Shown piece by piece: positions 17,210 through 38,943 of a DNA stretch of 64,000 nt. A model generated the notes under the pieces. The model had not been told where the DNA came from and made no database searches. It worked only from the letters and a program-made list of their open reading frames with translations. Each line of letters opens with the position of its first letter. Position 1 is the first letter of the stretch. Both the position numbers and the translations under genes were made by a program. Source of the DNA: Spirochaetales bacterium Spiro_09 (GTDB lineage Bacteria > Spirochaetota > Spirochaetia > Treponematales > Treponemataceae); contig LVBK01000013.1 of NCBI GenBank assembly GCA_001604385.1, forward strand, positions 1-64,000, read 5' to 3'.

Positions 17210-17683
17210 ATGCGATGTCCCCATTGCGGCAGTCTTGAAGACAAGGTTATAGAATCGCGAACACTCGCAAACGGAGACAGCATCAGGCGACGCAGGGAAT
17301 GTATCGAGTGCGGATATCGATTTACCAGCTATGAACGTATCGAAGAAAAGCAATTCATGGTCATAAAGCGTGACGGAAGACGTCAACCGTTCGACAGGAA
17401 AAAACTGGAGCATGGAATAGAACGTGCCCTTGAAAAACGTCCATTTTCGACAATGATGATAGACAATATTGTCAGCGAGATTGAAGATGAAGCGGCAATG
17501 TCCGGAAAGGCAGCTCACGAAATATCAAGTCAGGCTTTGGGGGAACTGGTTCTTGCCCGCCTGTATGATATTGACAAGGTAGCGTATATACGGTTTGCGT
17601 CTGTATACAGGCATTTTGAAAATTTGGCAGAGTTTATTTCAGAGGTGAATAAAGTGGGGGAAATGAATGGCAACGAACACTGA
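17210..17683 (+). CDS. nrdR: Transcriptional repressor NrdR
   Basis: Zinc-ribbon, ATP-cone regulator of ribonucleotide reductase genes that senses dATP/ATP. The N-terminal zinc ribbon has CPHC at residues 3-6 and CIEC near 31-34. The ATP-cone follows from about residue 48 (VIKRDGRRQPFDRKKLEHGI). The 157-residue length is normal. GGGAAGGA lies upstream of the ATG. The 3' end overlaps nrdD by 17 nt. Matching NrdR boxes lie in the promoter, so autoregulation is likely. Confidence 0.96.
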   Translation: MRCPHCGSLEDKVIESRTLANGDSIRRRRECIECGYRFTSYERIEEKQFMVIKRDGRRQPFDRKKLEHGIERALEKRPFSTMMIDNIVSEIEDEAAMSGKAAHEISSQALGELVLARLYDIDKVAYIRFASVYRHFENLAEFISEVNKVGEMNGNEH

Positions 17684-19802
17684 ATCGGGAACCCAGGAAC
17701 AAAGCGTGTTTCCGGAATGGAAACACTTTCTCGGATCGTCAAAAGATCCGGAAACCGGTTCATTTATCCGCAATGTTGTAAAACGTTCCGGTGAAATAAC
17801 GAGCTATGATCGCAGCAAGATAGAGCAAGCGATCGGGAAAGCCATACAGGCGACAGAACATAATCCCGATCCTGATCGCGCGGCTGCTTTGACTGACCGG
17901 GTCGAAGAACATCTTCGTGCACTCATGGCTGGACGACATGCGCATTCAATACCCGCAATTGAGGAAATACAGGATATCGTCGAGACGGTACTGATTGAAC
18001 AAAACGAGGTTGCGATAGCCAAGGCCTATATACTGTATCGTGCACGACATGAGGCTATCCGCGACACAGAACGGCTCATGCTCGATATCGATGATACCAT
18101 GAACGGATATTTGAGCCAGGCGGATTGGCGGGTCAAAGAAAACGCGAATGTTAACTTTTCTCTGGGCGGATTGATTCTGCACAATTCCGGTACCATTACC
18201 GCGAATTACTGGCTTAAAAATATTTACCCGGAAGAAGTAGCTGAAGCGCATAAAAACGCCGCCTTTCATATACATGATCTTTCAATGTTTTCAGGATACT
18301 GCGCCGGTTGGTCTATCCGTCAGCTCATAGCCGAAGGACTTGGGGGTGTACCGGACAAAATTACGTCAAAACCGGCTCGCCATCTTTCAACGCTCATTCA
18401 ACAAATTGTTAACTTCCTGGGAATCATGCAAAATGAATGGGCTGGCGCACAGGCTTTCAGTTCATTCGATACCTACCTTGCACCCTTTGTAAAAAAAGAC
18501 GGTTTGAGCGACAAGGAAATAAAGCAATGTCTGCAAAGCTTTATTTACGGAGTCAATACTCCGAGCAGATGGGGAAGCCAGGCGCCCTTTACCAATATTA
18601 CACTTGACTGGAACTGTCCTGCCGATCTAGCCGGATTACCGGCCGTTGTTGGTGGTTCGGAGATGCCCTTTACCTACGGTGACTGCCAAAAGGAAATGGA
18701 TGCAATCAACCGCATTTTTATCGAATTGATGCTCGAAGGAGACGCTGCAGGACGGGGATTCCAGTATCCTATCCCGACGTACAACATCACCTCCGATTTT
18801 GAGTGGTCCAGTCCGAACGCACAGCTGCTTTTTGAAATGACAGCCCGGTACGGAACACCCTATTTTCAGAACTTTGTCAATTCAGACCTGAATCCGAGCG
18901 ATGTGCGCTCAATGTGCTGCCGGCTTCAGCTGGATAAACGGGAATTGCGCAAACGGGGCGGCGGCCTGTTCGGTTCAGATGAATTCACCGGATCGATTGG
19001 TGTTGTCACTATAAACATGCCCCAGATAGGATATCTTTCCAATAGCGAAGCCCAGTACTTTGCACGGCTTGATTATCTTATGGAGCAGGCCCGTATCAGT
19101 TTGGTATACAAACGCAAGGTAATTGAACGTCTTCTTGAAGGGGGTCTTTTCCCGTATACACGAAGATATCTTACCCATTTGAACAATCACTTTTCCACTA
19201 TCGGTATTTGCGGAATGAACGAATCCTGTCTCAATTTCCTTGGAGTTGATATTGTAAATCCGCGAGGAAAGGCCTTTGCAGAGAAGGTGTTGACGCACAT
19301 GAGGCAGAAACTGGCCGACTTCCAGGAAAAAACCGGCGATTTATTCAATCTGGAAGCGACTCCGGCTGAAAGCACCTCATACCGTCTTGCACGACATGAT
19401 AAAAAGCATTACCCGGACATTATTACCTCCGGCGAAAAAGATCCCTTTTATACCAATTCAAGCCAGCTTCCGGTATCGTATACCACCGATGTCTTTGAGG
19501 CACTTGATCATCAGGAATCTTTGCAAACCAAATATACCGGGGGAACTGTCTTTCATCTCTTCCTTGGCGAAGCGATAAAAGATTGGGAGTCATGCCGGGA
19601 CCTGGTAAAATCGGTTGCTTCCAACTACCGAATTCCCTATTTCTCCATTTCTCCGACATTCTCGGTATGCCCGATTCATGGCTATATCAATGGGGAACAT
19701 TTTGAATGTCCGTCTTGCAAGGCCGAGCGGGTTGAGTTGCTGGCACACCGACTGACTGAGCTTGAAGCGGAATTACATTCAGCCGGAAATCCGAACCGCT
19801 GA
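17667..19802 (+). CDS. nrdD: Anaerobic ribonucleoside-triphosphate reductase, catalytic chain without glycyl-radical loop
   Basis: Class III reductase core that makes dNTPs without oxygen. Residues about 35-130 form an ATP-cone (VVKRSGEITSYDRSKIEQAI). The alpha/beta barrel contains Cys in FSGYCAGWSIRQL and RSMCCRLQL as thiyl and redox candidates. Near the C-terminus a CPIH...CPSC zinc site (about 674-693) is followed by a 20-residue helix and the stop. The RxxGY glycyl-radical loop that should follow the zinc site is missing, and the 711-residue length is short by about that domain. The loop is present in the next gene. GTGGGGGA precedes the ATG. Confidence 0.9.
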   Translation: MATNTESGTQEQSVFPEWKHFLGSSKDPETGSFIRNVVKRSGEITSYDRSKIEQAIGKAIQATEHNPDPDRAAALTDRVEEHLRALMAGRHAHSIPAIEEIQDIVETVLIEQNEVAIAKAYILYRARHEAIRDTERLMLDIDDTMNGYLSQADWRVKENANVNFSLGGLILHNSGTITANYWLKNIYPEEVAEAHKNAAFHIHDLSMFSGYCAGWSIRQLIAEGLGGVPDKITSKPARHLSTLIQQIVNFLGIMQNEWAGAQAFSSFDTYLAPFVKKDGLSDKEIKQCLQSFIYGVNTPSRWGSQAPFTNITLDWNCPADLAGLPAVVGGSEMPFTYGDCQKEMDAINRIFIELMLEGDAAGRGFQYPIPTYNITSDFEWSSPNAQLLFEMTARYGTPYFQNFVNSDLNPSDVRSMCCRLQLDKRELRKRGGGLFGSDEFTGSIGVVTINMPQIGYLSNSEAQYFARLDYLMEQARISLVYKRKVIERLLEGGLFPYTRRYLTHLNNHFSTIGICGMNESCLNFLGVDIVNPRGKAFAEKVLTHMRQKLADFQEKTGDLFNLEATPAESTSYRLARHDKKHYPDIITSGEKDPFYTNSSQLPVSYTTDVFEALDHQESLQTKYTGGTVFHLFLGEAIKDWESCRDLVKSVASNYRIPYFSISPTFSVCPIHGYINGEHFECPSCKAERVELLAHRLTELEAELHSAGNPNR

Positions 19803-25951: not shown

Positions 25952-27253
25952 TCAATGCGCGAGCGAGGGTAAAAAAAGCGCAATCTGGGGAAACATAATG
26001 AGCAAACCGGCAAAAGCAACCAGTGTCCATAAAAAGGGCAGCGAACCGCGGAATATGGTATCCAGGGCGATATCCCGCTCTATGCCACTGACAACATACA
26101 CATTCACTCCGACCGGTGGCGTAATGACCCCCATTTGAGTGATAACAACAATCAACACACCAAACCACACCGGATCAAAACCGAGGTTGGTCACAACCGG
26201 ATAAAAAATGGGAGTGGTAAGCAGAACGAGAGCCAGCGAGTCAATAAAACAGCCGACGAACAGATAAAAGCACAGTATCAATACCATGACCATAAAGCCC
26301 GGAAGAGGAAGTGAGGCAAACCATGCAGCAACGGTGAAGGGAATGCGCGAGACCGCAAGAAAGCGGCCAAAGACAACTGCCGCGGCAACAATAAGAAAAA
26401 TCATGCCGCTGGTCCGCGTCGTTTCGAGCAATATCCTTTTCATCACCGTAATGGAAAGACAGCGCTTGAACAGGGCTATCAGAAGACTTCCGCCGGCACC
26501 CACTGCAGCGGCCTCGATCGGGGTAAAGAGACCGGCAAACATGCCACCCATGACAAATAAAAAAAGAGCGAGAATCTCGATGACGCCGGTAAGGGACCGA
26601 AAGCGATCCTTCCAGCCAAAACGGGGTCCTGCTGGACCAAGTTCCGGATGCCGGATACAAAGAATCCAGATAGTCAGACAAAAAAGCATGCTGATAATCA
26701 AACCGGGTATAATCCCGGCCAGAAAGAGTGTACCGATAGATTGTTCTGTCAGGAGGGCATACACGATAAAGACGACACTGGGAGGAATCAACATACCAAG
26801 ACTGCCGCCTGCAGCGACCGTTCCCGAAGCAAGCTGGTCGGAATAATTATACCGCTTCATCTCTGGTAACGCAACGGTGGCCATTGTAGCGGCTGTTGCC
26901 GGTCCTGATCCGCTTATTGCACCGAAACCAGCACATGCGCCGACCGTTGCCATTGCAAGGCCGCCGGGTAAATGGCCGATCCAGGTATATGCCGAGCGGA
27001 AAAGGCTTGTGCTGATTCCCGCATGAAATGCAACCTGGCCCATCAAGACAAAGAGTGGTATTACTGTCAGGTTATACGACGAAAAGGTGTCAAACAGTTC
27101 GGCACTGACCATCGAGAATGCTGCCTGGGGATGAACTATGAGGGCAAAACCTGCAATACCTGAAACAAGCATGGCAAAGGCAACAGGCATACTTGAAAGC
27201 AGCAGTACAAATAACAGAATACAGCCAAGAGGGCCGGCATGCAGTGGATTCAC
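25952..27253 (-). CDS. dctM: TRAP transporter large permease (DctM type)
   Basis: Large membrane subunit of a tripartite ATP-independent periplasmic transporter, which uses an ion gradient to import a carboxylate-type solute. The 433-residue protein has about 12 hydrophobic segments and family sequences such as 'GFGAISGSGPATAATMATVALPEM' near residue 110. The ATG overlaps the small permease stop by 4 nt. Substrates of this family are mostly organic or sugar acids. The sequence alone does not choose one. Confidence 0.95.
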   Translation of the reverse strand: MNPLHAGPLGCILLFVLLLSSMPVAFAMLVSGIAGFALIVHPQAAFSMVSAELFDTFSSYNLTVIPLFVLMGQVAFHAGISTSLFRSAYTWIGHLPGGLAMATVGACAGFGAISGSGPATAATMATVALPEMKRYNYSDQLASGTVAAGGSLGMLIPPSVVFIVYALLTEQSIGTLFLAGIIPGLIISMLFCLTIWILCIRHPELGPAGPRFGWKDRFRSLTGVIEILALFLFVMGGMFAGLFTPIEAAAVGAGGSLLIALFKRCLSITVMKRILLETTRTSGMIFLIVAAAVVFGRFLAVSRIPFTVAAWFASLPLPGFMVMVLILCFYLFVGCFIDSLALVLLTTPIFYPVVTNLGFDPVWFGVLIVVITQMGVITPPVGVNVYVVSGIERDIALDTIFRGSLPFLWTLVAFAGLLIMFPQIALFLPSLAH

Positions 27254-27753
27254 GGTTTAATAAACTCCTTTCCGGGGTGCAGCATGTGATACAGTACAAT
27301 GATAAAAATCAATATGCAGGAGAAGCTTATCAGACAGGGGATCCAGAAAACGGGAACCGATAATGTAGGCATAACCTGGTGTGTCCGAAGAAGCATCAAG
27401 CCGTAGAGAAAACTTCTCCAGGCAAGAAGTGCGAACAAGGCAAGGGAAACCATGCGGAAGGATGTGTCAAGAACAAGACGTCCTTTTCGCGAACAACGGT
27501 GATAGAGAAACTCGATCGCTATGTGGCCCTTGACCGCGGTAACATACGGCAGGGAAAAAGCAATTGCAATAACTGCAGCGAGTCGCACTGCGTCATAGGC
27601 GCCCGGGATACCCGAGCCGGCAAGACGGAGAATAATATCCGCAAGTGTTATCACAATCATGGAAAGTATTGAGAGCCCGGATATTACTGCCAGAAAAAGA
27701 ACAAACCTGCGGATATAATTCCACAGGGAATTGACAACAAGGCTCATTTTCAA
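27250..27753 (-). CDS. dctQ: TRAP transporter small permease (DctQ type)
   Basis: Small four-helix membrane subunit of the TRAP transporter, 167 residues. Hydrophobic segments are at about 15-38, 50-70, 90-112 and 130-155, with the family pattern '[16 protein letters not shown]' in the central loop. It overlaps both neighbours by 4 nt and is translationally coupled to them. It should form the membrane complex with the DctM subunit. Confidence 0.93.
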
Positions 27754-28766
27754 CGGGCTCCCGCAACCATGCGCTGAATATCTTCTATAACGGTCCGTCC
27801 GCTTAAATTCTTGCTTTCTGCAGTTTTAATATACTCGTCAATTATTGGAGCGACCGCTTCCACCATGGCTTTTTCATCGGCGGGAGAAAGCGTTACGAAT
27901 CGGTGTCCGAGCGTATCGACCAATTCACGACCTTCCCGATCACTCGTATCCCAGGCAGTGCCCTGTATGTCAATCCACTGTGCATTCACCTCGTTGAATA
28001 TCTGCTGAATATCCTTGGGCAAGGAATCCCATTTCCCCTTGTTCATGACAACAAACATTGATGTGGTATATCCGATTGCGGTGGTGTCAACCACCTGTTG
28101 TATAACCTCAGCCTGTTTCCATCCAGAAAGCGTTTCAAGCGGACAAAGGGTTGCATCGACAACGCCTTTTTGAAGTGCCTCGTAGGTTTCTCCCTGGCTC
28201 ATTGAGACGGGCACCGCGCCGAGAGAGGATACTATTTTTGCTGATAATCCGGTTGCACGAATTTTGAGGGACGCTATATCTGACAATGAACGTACATGCT
28301 TTTTTGTAGCGAGAACTCCCGGACCATGACCGTGCAGATACATTACTTTTACGCCGGATAATTCATCCGGTGTATATTTAGCGAATATTTCATTGGCTAT
28401 TCTGGTAGCGGTAAGCCCATCCGGATACCCTACCGGCAGGTCAAGGGCTTCAAGAAGAGGGAAACGTCCACGGCTGTAGGCGAAGGCGCTCATTCCTATA
28501 TCGGAAATGCCGTTAACTACACCGTCATAACATTGAGGAGCCTTTGAAAGGGTCTCTCCCGCGAACACAGTGATTTTTACCCGGCCCTCGCTTCGCTTTT
28601 CAATTTCTGTTGCCCAGTCCTGGGCTGCACGTGATTGAGCATGACTTGCAGGAAAAAATATACTGTAGGTCAATTCAATGGTGTCATCGCGTTCACAGCC
28701 TGTCATAAGAGGCAATAGTAAAACGACACAGATACACAAACAAAGCGCAGGAAGAAAATTTTTCAT
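27750..28766 (-). CDS. dctP: TRAP transporter substrate-binding lipoprotein (DctP type)
   Basis: Periplasmic solute-binding protein of the TRAP system. The 338-residue precursor has a lipoprotein signal, lipobox LMTGC with Cys24, so it is membrane-anchored rather than soluble. Family features include '[16 protein letters not shown]', '[25 protein letters not shown]' and the substrate-carboxylate Arg region '[21 protein letters not shown]' near residue 170. GGAGAGG precedes the ATG. First gene of the TRAP-uspA operon. The bound ligand is probably an organic or sugar acid. Confidence 0.94.
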
Positions 28767-31339: not shown

Positions 31340-31566
31340 GGTAACCTCCACTTTATTGCACTTATACCAGTATACCACTGTCACACATTTTCGTTAGTTT
31401 TTTTTTCGCAAAACGTTTCCCGGTATGAGCCCTTTGAACGTGTCTACCATAACACCGTCAGCTCCATGCACAGTAAACGATGCTTCTTTTAGTTGACGAT
31501 AGCCACAAATACATGAGATATATTAGGAAGCGTTTACGAGCGGAAATGACGGCAAGGAGAATAAGG

Positions 31567-34482
31567 ATGCACTTTCAGGCAGCGGCTGATGGAAAAAGGT
31601 GGGAAATAGACAGCGCAACAGCGCTTGATGAAGCTACCGGTTTCCTGTGGAACCGACACATGGTGTTACACCAGCAATGTAGAGGATTCGCCATAGCTCG
31701 CTACATACATAACGGAACAGAAAAATACATACATACGCCGAATCTGGAAGCAAAAACCTTTATCCAGCCTGAACAGCCCTACTATGCCCATCATCCGGGC
31801 CGTTTTTTTTATCTGCGGGATACCCTGACAGGAAAACTATGCTCCCTTCCTCATGAACCGGTTCGCGCCCCGGCAGATTCCTGGCTTTTTTCCGCAGGAA
31901 CTGCTGATATAACCTGGCAGATACAGACTCTGGATCTCGAATGCAGACTGTCTGTGCATTTACCGGTGGACGCTGTTGCTGAATTATGGGAAATATCCAT
32001 TATCAATCGACATCCCGACAGCCGATCACTGTGCCTGTACCCGTACATACCCATCGGGTACATGAGCTGGATGAATCAGGGGGCTCACTGGAATGAACAG
32101 CTGGGAGGAATCATTGCAACCTCGGTCAGACCTTGGCAACGGCTGGAAGAATGGAACGACATACGGGAAGCTCTCGACATAACTGCGGTTCTGCCGGAAC
32201 GAAAGCCCGACAGCTGGGAAACCTGTCGAAAACGGTTTGAAGGAGAAGGAGGGTTGCAAAATCCCTCGGCATTGCAGGAAGCAAAACTGTCCTGTGAACC
32301 GGCACTCTATGAAAGTCCTGTCGCCGCTTTTCAATATACCTTCGACCTGATGAGCGAAGGTTCGGAAGTCTTCAGGTTCATGATACTGCCGGCACAAAAA
32401 GAAAGCGATATTGAACCATTGAAAAGAAACTATCTGTCTGAAGAAGGTTTTTCACGCTCCCGGGAGGAAATGAAACACTTTCAGGCCAGTATACAACCCG
32501 CTTTGGAGATTCATACACCGGATGCGAATTTGGACAGTCTGGTGAATCACTGGCTTCCGAATCAAATGAGATATTTGGGGGAACTGAACCGGCTCACCCT
32601 TGATCCGCAAACCCGTAATTATCTGCAAGACGGTATGGCCTTTACCTGGCTGGACCCGAGCCGTTTTCGTTCGGTTATCAAAAAAACTCTCTCGCAACAA
32701 AGACCCGATGGTTCTCTGCCAGATGGCATCAAGCTCAGGGATAATATCGAGCTGACTTATATTAACCGCATACCGCATACCGACCATTGTGTGTGGCTTC
32801 CGGTTTGTCTTGAACCCTGGCTTGCAGAGACGGGAGACCTGGCATTTCTCGATGAAATAGTTTCCTCCGATAACGGAGAGACAGCAACGGTTGCTGCCAG
32901 AATTTCACGAGCCCTTAACTTCCTGTTATCAAGACGGGACGAACGACTCCTGTGTTACATGGAACAGGGAGATTGGTGCGATCCCATGAATATGGCAGGC
33001 GCGCGTGGACGTGGAGTCTCTTCATGGCTCACTATCGCACTGGTTCATGCATTAACCGTATGGTCGTCAATTTGTGCAGCAAAAGGTGATACCTCACAAT
33101 GCGATTACTTTACTGCACACAAAAATGCAACCATTGATGCAGTTCACCGTCATCTGTGGGACGGAAATTGGTATTCAAGAGGTATCAGCGACGATGGTAT
33201 ACCGTTCGGTGTTGCATCCGATGCAGAGGGCCGTATGTACTTGAATCCGCAAAGCTGGGCGCTCATGGCACAGATTCCGGATGAGAACCAAAAACACTGC
33301 ATATTACAGGCGGTACGACAGCACCTGGAAACCCCCTTCGGACCGGTTATGCTTGCACCGGCATATACACACATGCATGAACATATCGGGCGCCTTACGC
33401 AAAAATTCCCCGGTTCAGCAGAAAATGGATCCGTGTATAATCATGCAGCAGCTTTCTGGATATATGCCTTATTTCAGCACCATGAGTATGCCCAGGCATG
33501 GCGGGCACTTGTTGATGTAACCGGTATACGCGGTAGCGCTGGTCGATACCGCCGGGGACAGCTTCCCGTCTTCATTCCAAATTATTGGCGAGGTGCCTGG
33601 AAGGAATTCCCCTCTCATGCAGGTAGATCAAGCCATCTATTCAATACCGGCAGCGCAGCCTGGATCTACCGTTCGATCAGCGAAGGCCTGTGCGGGTTCA
33701 AACCGACACCGCGCGGACTGCGCATAGAGTGCGGAATTCCGGCTGAATGGAGTACGGCACATTTTATTCGCCGTTTTCGTCAATCCATTATCGAACTCGA
33801 AGTTCGTAGAACAATAAACCCTGCTCCGGGGCTACGATTGATGAAGGTAACTCCCGATGACGGGGACACTAACTCTGCAAGCACAATTATCGAGGGCTCC
33901 GAACTGGTCGGAATACGGGAAGGGAAACGGTACCAGCTCTCCCTTGACCTTCCCCTTGCAAAACGACTTGTAGTAATCATGGGTGTAAGCGGTTCAGGAA
34001 AATCAACAGTAGCGCGACAAGTCGCACACAAAACACATGCTTTTTTTATGGAAGCAGATGATTATCATACGCCTGAAAACAAGGAGCGAATGGCAGGTGG
34101 AGAAAGTCTGACTGACGAAATGAGAGAACCCTGGATGAACGCCCTGTGTCAGGCTCTATGCGATACAGCAAAAACTGACACTTGTGGAATGATTGTTCTG
34201 GCTTGGTCAGGTTTGCGACAGGCTCATCGAAGCCGTATCAGATCTCTTGGATTACATACCAGTTTCTTTCTTCTACAGGGCAGCTTTGACCTAATCCAGC
34301 AGCGGCTTACTGCACGCATTGGACATTTTATGAATGCGAATCTTTTAGCGAGCCAGTTTCAAGCCCAGGAAAGCACTGATTTTGAAACTGACGTTACCGT
34401 TCTGGATGCCGCATTGCCAGTCGATTGCATTGAAGGGCAGATTACGAGCCAGATTGAATCTGGTTTTCAAGATATCCTATGA
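31567..34482 (+). CDS. GH94 glycoside phosphorylase (cellobionic-acid-phosphorylase type) fused to gluconokinase
   Basis: A 971-residue two-enzyme fusion. Residues 1 to about 790 are a GH94 phosphorylase. 'NLEAKTFIQPEQPYYAHHPGRFFY' near residue 60 and GDWCDPMN with Asp469/Asp472 near the active site look like cellobionic acid phosphorylase rather than cellobiose phosphorylase. Residues about 797-971 are a full gluconokinase: P-loop GVSGSGKS (806-813), DYHTPENKERMAGG, and RIGHFMNANLLASQF. Proposed path: cellobionate + Pi gives glucose-1-phosphate + gluconate, then ATP converts gluconate to 6-phosphogluconate. The start at 31567 has AAGGAG 7 nt upstream. A longer frame from 31480 lacks one. No signal peptide, so cytosolic. 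Confidence 0.88.
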   Translation: MHFQAAADGKRWEIDSATALDEATGFLWNRHMVLHQQCRGFAIARYIHNGTEKYIHTPNLEAKTFIQPEQPYYAHHPGRFFYLRDTLTGKLCSLPHEPVRAPADSWLFSAGTADITWQIQTLDLECRLSVHLPVDAVAELWEISIINRHPDSRSLCLYPYIPIGYMSWMNQGAHWNEQLGGIIATSVRPWQRLEEWNDIREALDITAVLPERKPDSWETCRKRFEGEGGLQNPSALQEAKLSCEPALYESPVAAFQYTFDLMSEGSEVFRFMILPAQKESDIEPLKRNYLSEEGFSRSREEMKHFQASIQPALEIHTPDANLDSLVNHWLPNQMRYLGELNRLTLDPQTRNYLQDGMAFTWLDPSRFRSVIKKTLSQQRPDGSLPDGIKLRDNIELTYINRIPHTDHCVWLPVCLEPWLAETGDLAFLDEIVSSDNGETATVAARISRALNFLLSRRDERLLCYMEQGDWCDPMNMAGARGRGVSSWLTIALVHALTVWSSICAAKGDTSQCDYFTAHKNATIDAVHRHLWDGNWYSRGISDDGIPFGVASDAEGRMYLNPQSWALMAQIPDENQKHCILQAVRQHLETPFGPVMLAPAYTHMHEHIGRLTQKFPGSAENGSVYNHAAAFWIYALFQHHEYAQAWRALVDVTGIRGSAGRYRRGQLPVFIPNYWRGAWKEFPSHAGRSSHLFNTGSAAWIYRSISEGLCGFKPTPRGLRIECGIPAEWSTAHFIRRFRQSIIELEVRRTINPAPGLRLMKVTPDDGDTNSASTIIEGSELVGIREGKRYQLSLDLPLAKRLVVIMGVSGSGKSTVARQVAHKTHAFFMEADDYHTPENKERMAGGESLTDEMREPWMNALCQALCDTAKTDTCGMIVLAWSGLRQAHRSRIRSLGLHTSFFLLQGSFDLIQQRLTARIGHFMNANLLASQFQAQESTDFETDVTVLDAALPVDCIEGQITSQIESGFQDIL

Positions 34483-37044: not shown

Positions 37045-38847
37045 CTATATCCCGCCGGAAGTTAATATCTCAATTACCGTGTCAAAGGCAGGTTTTGTGT
37101 AATACAGCCCGTCAAACAACAGCGGATAACTTGTCTCATCATGCAGATCAGTCAACCAGGTATTCGCATCCGTAATGCCCCATAGAGTTATCCCGGTAAT
37201 ACCGGGAAGGCTTCCCGTTTTGCGCTTTTCAAGGAACAAGGTAAAATAATCTGCATAAACTGAAGCGAGCTCGGCCTGTACCACAGCATCGTTCGAGGTA
37301 GTATGAATGTCCAATTCCGTTACCTGAACATCCAGACCTTTTTCAAAGAAAGCCTCAACAGCGGTACGGTAGGAAGACACGCCCGGATACCCGATCAGGA
37401 CATGGGACTGCATTCCCAATACATCTATACGCGCTTCGGGATCTGCCTGTATCGCATCGATTATTTTCAATATTGCAGCTGTTTTTGCGGGAATATAGGT
37501 ATTGTAATCATTATAGGCAAGAAGCACATCGGATGAAGCAAACTCGTTGGCATATACAAATGCATTTACAATAAAATCTGCATTCCCGTAAATCGCAAAC
37601 CAGGAGCTTGAATCTGCTCCCCGTAACCAGTTTGTGCTGGTAGCCTGGTCACTTGCGGCTTCATTTACCACATCCCAACTGGTTATAATGCGTTCACCGG
37701 CGTTATTCTCGTTCTCCCAATCCTGGACATGGGTCAATACAGATTCGATATACCACCGCATGCGTGCATTCATTTCTGCAACCCCGACACGGGGAAGAGA
37801 GGTATTAAAATCCTGCCTGAAAAACCATTCGGGCGTCTGGGAATGCCACACAAGCACATGGCCTCGCATGGTCAAGCCGGAATCCCGACAGTGGGAAAAG
37901 GCTTGATCCACAGTGGAGAAATTTAACGCACCGGGTACGGGGTATGTCACTCCGTCTGGACCAGTATACAAGACTGTCTGTGCCGGCGGGTTAGCGCCCA
38001 ATATGGCATCGGGCTTGAACTCGTTTCCCAGGGTAATACTGTCCGCATGACGCGCAAGTCCCGCACGGATACCGGACTGAGAAAGTTCCGAAGCGAGAAC
38101 TGCAATGCCAAAATAGTCAAACCACGGAGCGGCCGCTTCCTTGAGAGCGGGTGCTTCCGTCCAGTGAACGGCACCAGAGGGAACATTGATCAAACGGAGG
38201 TCATACAGAGTGAAGCTCGTGTCTGCGGGAGCAGATATTCCAATCGCCAGCTCTAATGTATTGGTAAGATTTCGGACATAGTCGCTGTCTGCACCGAGCG
38301 ATCCATAATCAAAGGCAATAACAAGCTCAAGGATATCCGACACAGCTGCTGAACCCGCCGAACGTCTGGCAAGGACAAGGTTCGTGGGAGGATTCATTTC
38401 AATAGCAGTAAACGCTGTTGCACCGGGAGCCTTTACTTCTACAGCAAGGTTCCGGTACGCCAAATTGTCAGAATCAATACGTACCTTCATACCGAGACCG
38501 GCAAAATCTGACAGAGTCTGTTCACCCAAATTTACTGAAAACACAGCTGCTGCGTTCCAGTTATTATTGACAATATGCCAGGCAGCTGTTCCATCCACAC
38601 TAGTTTCGGACACAGAGACACTTGTTGAACCTTCCCAACCGCAGGCACCGGTTTGTGTGAACAACAAAGGGCTCGAATCGACAGGAGTATCATCTACAGG
38701 ATTATCATCCGGGTCTGATGGTACCTCCGGTGAAGTATCAGAGTCCGGTTTTTCCGCGGTTGAAGTTGAACATGATAGAATAAAGGAACCAAAAACAAAT
38801 AAGGACACTGTAATGAGGCCAGCGATCAACGAGTTTGCTTTGCGCAC
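37045..38847 (-). CDS. GH10 endo-1,4-beta-xylanase lipoprotein with N-terminal beta-sandwich domain
   Basis: Cell-surface xylan-degrading enzyme of 600 residues. A lipoprotein-type signal ends ILSCS, and a Ser/Pro/Asp linker follows. A carbohydrate-binding-like beta-sandwich occupies about 50-215 (GWEGSTSVSVSETSVDGTAAWH). The GH10 barrel fills the rest: HVLVWHSQTPEWF, acid/base Glu in WDVVNEA (about residue 392) and nucleophile Glu in VTELDIH (about 511). I start at GTG 38847, which has GGAGG 5 nt upstream. An in-frame TTG at 38859 would include that ribosome-binding site. It works with the GH11 enzyme 1.8 kb away. Confidence 0.93.
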   Translation of the reverse strand: MRKANSLIAGLITVSLFVFGSFILSCSTSTAEKPDSDTSPEVPSDPDDNPVDDTPVDSSPLLFTQTGACGWEGSTSVSVSETSVDGTAAWHIVNNNWNAAAVFSVNLGEQTLSDFAGLGMKVRIDSDNLAYRNLAVEVKAPGATAFTAIEMNPPTNLVLARRSAGSAAVSDILELVIAFDYGSLGADSDYVRNLTNTLELAIGISAPADTSFTLYDLRLINVPSGAVHWTEAPALKEAAAPWFDYFGIAVLASELSQSGIRAGLARHADSITLGNEFKPDAILGANPPAQTVLYTGPDGVTYPVPGALNFSTVDQAFSHCRDSGLTMRGHVLVWHSQTPEWFFRQDFNTSLPRVGVAEMNARMRWYIESVLTHVQDWENENNAGERIITSWDVVNEAASDQATSTNWLRGADSSSWFAIYGNADFIVNAFVYANEFASSDVLLAYNDYNTYIPAKTAAILKIIDAIQADPEARIDVLGMQSHVLIGYPGVSSYRTAVEAFFEKGLDVQVTELDIHTTSNDAVVQAELASVYADYFTLFLEKRKTGSLPGITGITLWGITDANTWLTDLHDETSYPLLFDGLYYTKPAFDTVIEILTSGGI

Positions 38848-38943
38848 AAGCACCTCCAAAAAGTCTAATATATCTATTTTACTAGCATAGCTCCAGGATT
38901 ACAAGTATTGACCAGTTTATTTTACATAATTCAATTCTGATTG

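Follow-up and report, generated by a model that had tools for sequence, protein, structure and literature searches.

A single gene for a putative cellobionate phosphorylase and gluconokinase

The window analyzed here, a DNA stretch of 64,000 nucleotides, carries a gene whose product is very probably bifunctional and would convert cellobionate, inorganic phosphate, and ATP into glucose-1-phosphate and 6-phosphogluconate. The gene (positions 31567 to 34482 of the plus strand, stop codon included) is a single open frame of 971 codons and encodes a protein of 971 residues (P0001). Residues 1 to 796 form a GH94 part that is, judging from its sequence, of the cellobionic acid phosphorylase (CBAP) type, and a kinase part follows. 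The ATG at 31567 is likely the start codon, since a likely ribosome-binding site, AAGGAG (31554 to 31559, plus strand), precedes it with a gap of 7 nt and since the alignment with chain 4ZLE, the CBAP of Saccharophagus degradans (SdCBAP), opens at query residue 5 and chain residue 4. The alternative start, an upstream ATG at 31480 that gives a longer frame, appears less likely. A promoter and terminator scan gave counts close to those of shuffled sequence (5 versus a mean of 4.5; 4 versus 2.9).

Profile searches placed three domains on the plus strand of the frame, with GH94 and gluconokinase scores far from chance. The GH94 N-terminal beta-supersandwich domain (PF06165 in Pfam) spans residues 75 to 272 (31789 to 32382), and the GH94 catalytic domain (PF17167, E = 3.9e-54, and the Foldseek match to 4zle) covers residues 312 to 710 (32500 to 33696). 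The gluconokinase domain, recognized by TIGR01313 of NCBIfam and by its match to E. coli GntK (1KNQ), extends over residues 802 to 961 (33970 to 34449). Only four residues, 797 to 800 (33955 to 33966), lie between the GH94 part and the kinase part; according to the alignment and the predicted strands (787 to 796 and 800 to 805), this linker leads from the last GH94 strand to the first kinase strand. The original prediction had described a 971-residue frame with a GH94 domain and a complete C-terminal gluconokinase, and the Pfam and NCBIfam matches agree with it. The motifs that it had located in the frame, namely, GDWCDPMN with D469 and D472, the P-loop GVSGSGKS at residues 806 to 813 (33982 to 34005, also seen in the kinase alignment), and HFM...SQF at residues 920 to 931, all lie at the positions that it gave.

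The GH94 part groups with cellobionic acid phosphorylases

Among PDB chains, the top match of the GH94 part was SdCBAP 4ZLE, with an E value of 1.1e-257 and 861 bits. The next distinct PDB sequence, a cyclic glucan synthase, reached 169 bits, and the chains of cellobiose, lactose, and chitobiose phosphorylases reached 85 to 159 bits. A structure of the protein was predicted with AlphaFold2 from an alignment of 78 rows (A2), with a mean pLDDT of 88.7 and a pTM of 0.90. Foldseek ranked 4zle and 4zlf, both titled cellobionic acid phosphorylase, first and second for this model, which superimposed on them with a TM score of 0.96 by target length and 0.78 by query length at 46% identity; ranks 3 to 16 were other GH94 phosphorylases with 18 to 20% identity.

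The alignment with 4ZLE pairs Q191 (codon at 32137 to 32139), N351 (32617 to 32619), D472 (32980 to 32982), R609, and K613 (codons R609 to K613, 33391 to 33405) with Gln190, Asn350, Asp472, Arg609, and Lys613 of SdCBAP, respectively. D472 would be the general acid of GH94 phosphorylases. In the SdCBAP structure of Nam et al. 2015, Arg609, Lys613, and Gln190 of the partner subunit reportedly bind the aldonate carboxylate, and we take R609, K613, and Q191 of the fused protein to make the same contacts, so that R609, K613, and a partner-subunit Q191 would hold the carboxylate of the aldonate. Q191, N351, R609, and K613 are kept in all 108 rows of the CBAP clade. The aspartate at position 472 is common to these rows (108/108) and to the other GH94 rows (17/17). 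Among 16 other GH94 rows, K613 and Q612 never occur (0/16 each) and R609 occurs in 4; where those rows have a residue at the site, N351 is found in 0 of 15 and Q191 in 0 of 6. A 17th low-scoring row, L078, was left out of the 16 because it is itself a CBAP with a phmmer hit split in two, and it shows Q, N, D, R, Q, and K at positions 191, 351, 472, 609, 612, and 613. Two further GH94 genes of the same genome (L002 and L003) fall among the non-CBAP comparison rows.

These scores, the structure match, and the residue counts against other GH94 enzymes bear out the cellobionate-type assignment of the original prediction, and the alignment with characterized GH94 enzymes that it had proposed finds Q191, R609, K613, and N351 all present. 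Grouping of the GH94 part with cellobionic acid phosphorylases (EC 2.4.1.321), apart from other GH94 enzymes, is thus supported by independent comparisons. CBAP has Asn350 at a position where most GH94 enzymes carry Asp (PMC8741936). Solabiose phosphorylase, 11.5 to 29.2% identical to characterized GH94 enzymes, has Asp there (PMC8741936), and a solabiose-phosphorylase-like specificity was rejected on the grounds that the fused protein has Asn at this site. The CBAP of GH94 forms a dimer, and its pocket lies at the interface of the two subunits (PMC5309861).

The kinase part is of the GntK type

The kinase part matches TIGR01313, the GntK/IdnK-type family, over residues 802 to 961 and profile positions 1 to 160 of 164 with 130.6 bits, above the cut-off of 113.75. 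Its scores lie below the two E. coli gluconokinase equivalog cut-offs (NF008583, 124.4 versus 265 bits; NF007336, 94.9 versus 304 bits); by these profiles, it is of the same subfamily as the E. coli enzymes and is not filed as their equivalog. Searched alone against the PDB, the kinase domain found 1KNQ, the GntK of E. coli, with E = 4.3e-34, besides two further kinases. All 13 residues common to 67 of 67 kinases, its own included (G806, G809, G811, K812, D831, H834, R853, W856, S881, R888, R917, H920, and Q930), are present in it, which together with the TIGR01313 score upholds its earlier reading as a GntK-type gluconokinase. The genome (88% complete) contains a single TIGR01313 match, namely, the kinase part of the fusion. 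Likewise, each of 10 genomes picked for comparison (5 with the fused gene, 4 with the same-frame pair, and 1 with adjacent genes) has exactly one kinase above the cut-off, linked to the CBAP by its coordinates, and 4 of the 10 have additional weak matches below it.

The kinase alignment revealed one motif that departs from the E. coli form: the fused kinase reads SGLRQAHR (residues 881 to 888; 34207 to 34230, plus strand) where E. coli GntK reads SALKKHYR, a case of SALxxxYR. The form SGLxxxHR is found in 47 of the 67 kinases of CBAP loci, including five of the six fused ones, the sixth having SCLxxxHR. This variant could mean that the substrate of the kinase is shifted, and SGLxxxHR in place of SALxxxYR may mark a specialized kinase branch. 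In a separate observation, the fused kinase of Psychrosphaera saromensis (L027, 5923 to 8898) has GKN in its P-loop in place of the usual GK[S/T] and may be altered in activity.

The variant motif bears on the alternative that the main substrate of the GH94 part is a glucosyl-uronate or some other beta-glucosyl sugar acid, with the corresponding acid as the substrate of the kinase. SdCBAP was also crystallized with 3-O-beta-glucosyl-glucuronate (4ZLI; PMC8741936). We nonetheless regard this alternative as quite unlikely, given that the fused kinase exceeds the GntK/IdnK-type cut-off and that the compared +1 residues match those of the characterized CBAP. Cellobionate and gluconate are the substrates that we retain below.

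The fusion is rare but recurs in other bacteria

To place the gene among its relatives, one genome each of 84,980 species was scanned, and the best 80 of 460 relatives were taken, a selection that favors fused ones. An order survey around a Thalassotalea genome (L008), in which 31 of 345 genomes matched at E ≤ 1e-100, was added, and the two together gave 108 different CBAP rows. Before the counts, L098 (a partial second copy of the gene described here) and the split-hit CBAP L078 were left out, and three duplicates (L084, L099, and L100, which are the GH94 domains of L004, L008, and L018) were removed; L130 to L133 came after the trees and are in neither the trees nor the counts. Six rows are fused, 4 have a single stop codon between the CBAP and an in-frame kinase, and 29 have the kinase adjacent, with the kinase match starting −60 to 250 nt from the end of the CBAP frame, as with the adjacent or overlapping genes of Pseudoxanthomonas and Luteimonas. 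In 8 others the kinase lies further off on the same strand and in 20 on the opposite strand. Since the remaining 41 of 108 rows have no such kinase in the flanks examined (up to 6 kb, and for some loci 1.5 kb), the pairing of CBAP and kinase in cis is not obligatory.

The search for the same domain pair in other genomes, which had been suggested along with the prediction, thus yielded five further fused genes. They belong to Spirochaetes bacterium ADurb.Bin215, a MAG of the same genus (L004, the same as G005) whose fused gene is 49% identical to ours, to the Thalassotalea MAG (L008), to Thalassomonas sp. M1454 (L013), to a gammaproteobacterial MAG (L023), and to Psychrosphaera saromensis SA4-48 (L027). 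The fusion is rare: it accounts for 1 of the 31 CBAPs in the order survey and for 1 of the 10 found when 398 genomes were drawn from the phylum of G418, and both times the sole fused case is the very genome around which the sampling was centered. When 392 genomes of the phylum Spirochaetota were drawn, only the genome described here passed 1e-150, and among 59 relatives, itself included, only it and G005 did. Two of 12 same-genus genomes searched carry the fusion, several of the 12 being incomplete. As for plasmids, matches occur in 553 records, of which none spans 80% or more of the query, and the 20 listed are 23.8 to 26.8% identical.

Draft genomes such as this one (83 contigs, 88% complete) invite the suspicion that two genes were misjoined in assembly or that the contig is foreign to the bin. 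Such an artefact is extremely improbable here. The same fusion is found in the same-genus MAG with 49% identity and with the SPFH and NfeD genes, OTC, and a 796/797-residue protein shared between the loci, and it recurs in four gammaproteobacterial genomes, two of which belong to named strains (Thalassomonas sp. M1454 and Psychrosphaera saromensis SA4-48).

Origins of the fused gene

Three changes of the fused state are required on the GH94 tree built from 108 rows, each of them imposed by well-supported branches, and a mixture-model GH94 tree of 48 rows likewise needs three. The spirochaete pair, the Colwelliaceae pair, and the L023/L027 pair stand apart in the tree, each with nonfused relatives nearby. 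A single origin was rejected: one fused clade, a grouping defined by gene structure and tested after the first 108-row tree had been seen, gave a p-AU of 1.2e-5 in an AU test on 48 rows selected from the 108 with all 6 fused ones included. The best kinase tree has four changes, of which well-supported branches force only one, and is compatible with three origins without proving them. Both full trees have long branches, that of our gene among them, and counts of changes alone cannot separate gains from losses; the three changes are nevertheless best read as three independent origins, with the same fusion apparently arising separately in unrelated bacteria.

Within the spirochaetes, the locus is partly syntenic, which favors one acquisition in an ancestor of both. 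On one side, NfeD and two SPFH genes occur in both genomes and are 61 to 80% identical. On the other side, OTC (73% identical) and the 796/797-residue protein (36%) lie next to the fused gene in G005, and in the window they lie about 13 to 16 kb from it in reverse order. The G005 gene itself is divided between two contigs, which have an overlap of 75 identical bases.

Whether the join confers anything beyond proximity can be weighed on the same data. It is somewhat probable that the fusion is functionally neutral, a joining of operon partners by loss of a stop codon that brings only coexpression and equal amounts, with no channeling and with both activities unchanged. The kinase gene is adjacent in 29 of 108 rows and in the same frame after one stop in 4 of 108, which makes the step small, and the linkers of the six fused proteins vary in length (4, 8, 12, 10, 8, and 8 residues from the last GH94 proline to the first kinase leucine). 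The three changes on the GH94 tree, read as three origins, hint instead at an advantage, although repeated chance joins of adjacent genes would look alike on a tree. If there is one, it is probably that kinase and phosphorylase are always supplied 1:1; the direct passing of gluconate from one site to the other that the original prediction had inferred, a form of substrate channeling, is possible. The most elaborate reading, in which the genes fused three times or more independently, the closely attached kinase catches gluconate leaving the +1 site at the dimer interface before it escapes from the complex, and the SGLxxxHR gluconokinases form a branch that coevolved with CBAP, strikes us as doubtful. 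The single stops of the four same-frame loci (L005, 6834 to 6836; L006, 8368 to 8370; L018, 3757 to 3759; L034, 5464 to 5466) were also noted and possibly represent a state half-way to fusion.

Proposed pathway and genomic surroundings

From these comparisons we infer the two activities, the order of the steps, and the location of the protein, which is presumably cytoplasmic. The GH94 part would use inorganic phosphate to split cellobionate (4-O-beta-glucosyl-gluconate) into alpha-glucose-1-phosphate and gluconate, and the fused GntK-type kinase would phosphorylate the released gluconate with ATP to 6-phosphogluconate. The latter could then enter the pentose phosphate pathway through a 6-phosphogluconate dehydrogenase (6PGDH) encoded elsewhere in the genome, where a 6PGDH match was found. 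No G6PDH turned up in the MAG, which is 88% complete. The gap is probably due to incompleteness, since G6PDH is present in 10 of the 11 other genomes of the genus; 6PGDH matches occur in 11 of 11, some of them fragmentary. With G6PDH in those 10 genomes, the notion of the fusion as the only entry to 6-phosphogluconate was set aside as unproven.

The route had been called a self-contained salvage pathway, which overstates the case. When the eight window neighbors of the gene were scanned against Pfam, no dedicated transporter adjoining it was seen, and the only transporter parts were TRAP DctP and DctM (25952 to 28766, minus strand), which lie about 3 kb away on the opposite strand. The substrate of this TRAP system could be a sugar acid. 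A GH10 xylanase-type protein is also encoded nearby (37045 to 38859, minus strand), in keeping with a diet of plant polysaccharides. In the gammaproteobacterial L013, an MFS_2 sugar transporter gene comes before the fused gene and one for a CBM9-like protein after it, and L027 has the same gene order by reading of the locus. This arrangement is a coherent uptake cluster in fused gammaproteobacteria and is not seen beside the spirochaete gene.

The original prediction had also expressed surprise at finding oxidized sugars used beside a class III ribonucleotide reductase. A gene resembling one, named so by the same prediction, is present in the window (17667 to 19802), and no AA10 LPMO match was found in the 88% complete genome. 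The two observations suit a bacterium that scavenges cellobionate in a low-oxygen habitat, not one that makes it. The apparent paradox for an anaerobe is weak because the substrate may come from outside, and the surprise was overstated. An engineered yeast consumed cellobionate under anaerobic conditions (PMC4537572). With neither LPMO nor G6PDH found in the MAG, the physiology of the bacterium itself is uncertain.

Comparison with known systems

If the proposed activities hold, two consecutive steps of the oxidized-cellulose route would reside within one chain, and the gene would strongly indicate, at the genomic level, what becomes of the gluconate half. It would also offer a bifunctional enzyme ready for use in engineering cellobionate utilization, a setting in which too little kinase activity was the limit inferred by the authors of the yeast work (PMC4537572). 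The repeated joining of adjacent genes is in effect a small experiment of nature on what drives pathway enzymes to fuse. Cellobionate salvage would be placed in a spirochaete with a class III ribonucleotide reductase-like gene, which suggests that oxidized cello-oligosaccharides reach such habitats.

The original prediction knew of no described fusion of this kind, and we likewise found no description of a fused CBAP-gluconokinase in the titles and abstract beginnings of the open-licence papers searched. Kinase genes clustered with those of other glycoside phosphorylases, unfused, are reported in one study (PMC7178133). Both activities and their pairing in a pathway are already known, and the fused form seems to be undescribed. 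SdCBAP (Sde_0906; PDB 4ZLE, 4ZLF, 4ZLG, and 4ZLI) shares with our protein full-length GH94 homology, the compared +1 residues, and the Asn350-type substitution, but its 4ZLE chain of 796 residues, in which the match ends at 785, has no kinase domain. E. coli GntK (1KNQ) shares the family and the P-loop, yet it is a separate protein of 175 residues and reads CSALKKHYR where the fused kinase reads AWSGLRQAHR. In Neurospora crassa, the CAP (NCU09425) and a gluconokinase (NCU07626) carry out the same two consecutive reactions, but there they are the products of two fungal genes, separate proteins that were moved to yeast (PMC4537572). The CBAP-gluconokinase pairs of Pseudoxanthomonas and Luteimonas comprise the same enzymes, encoded by neighboring or overlapping genes, as separate chains.
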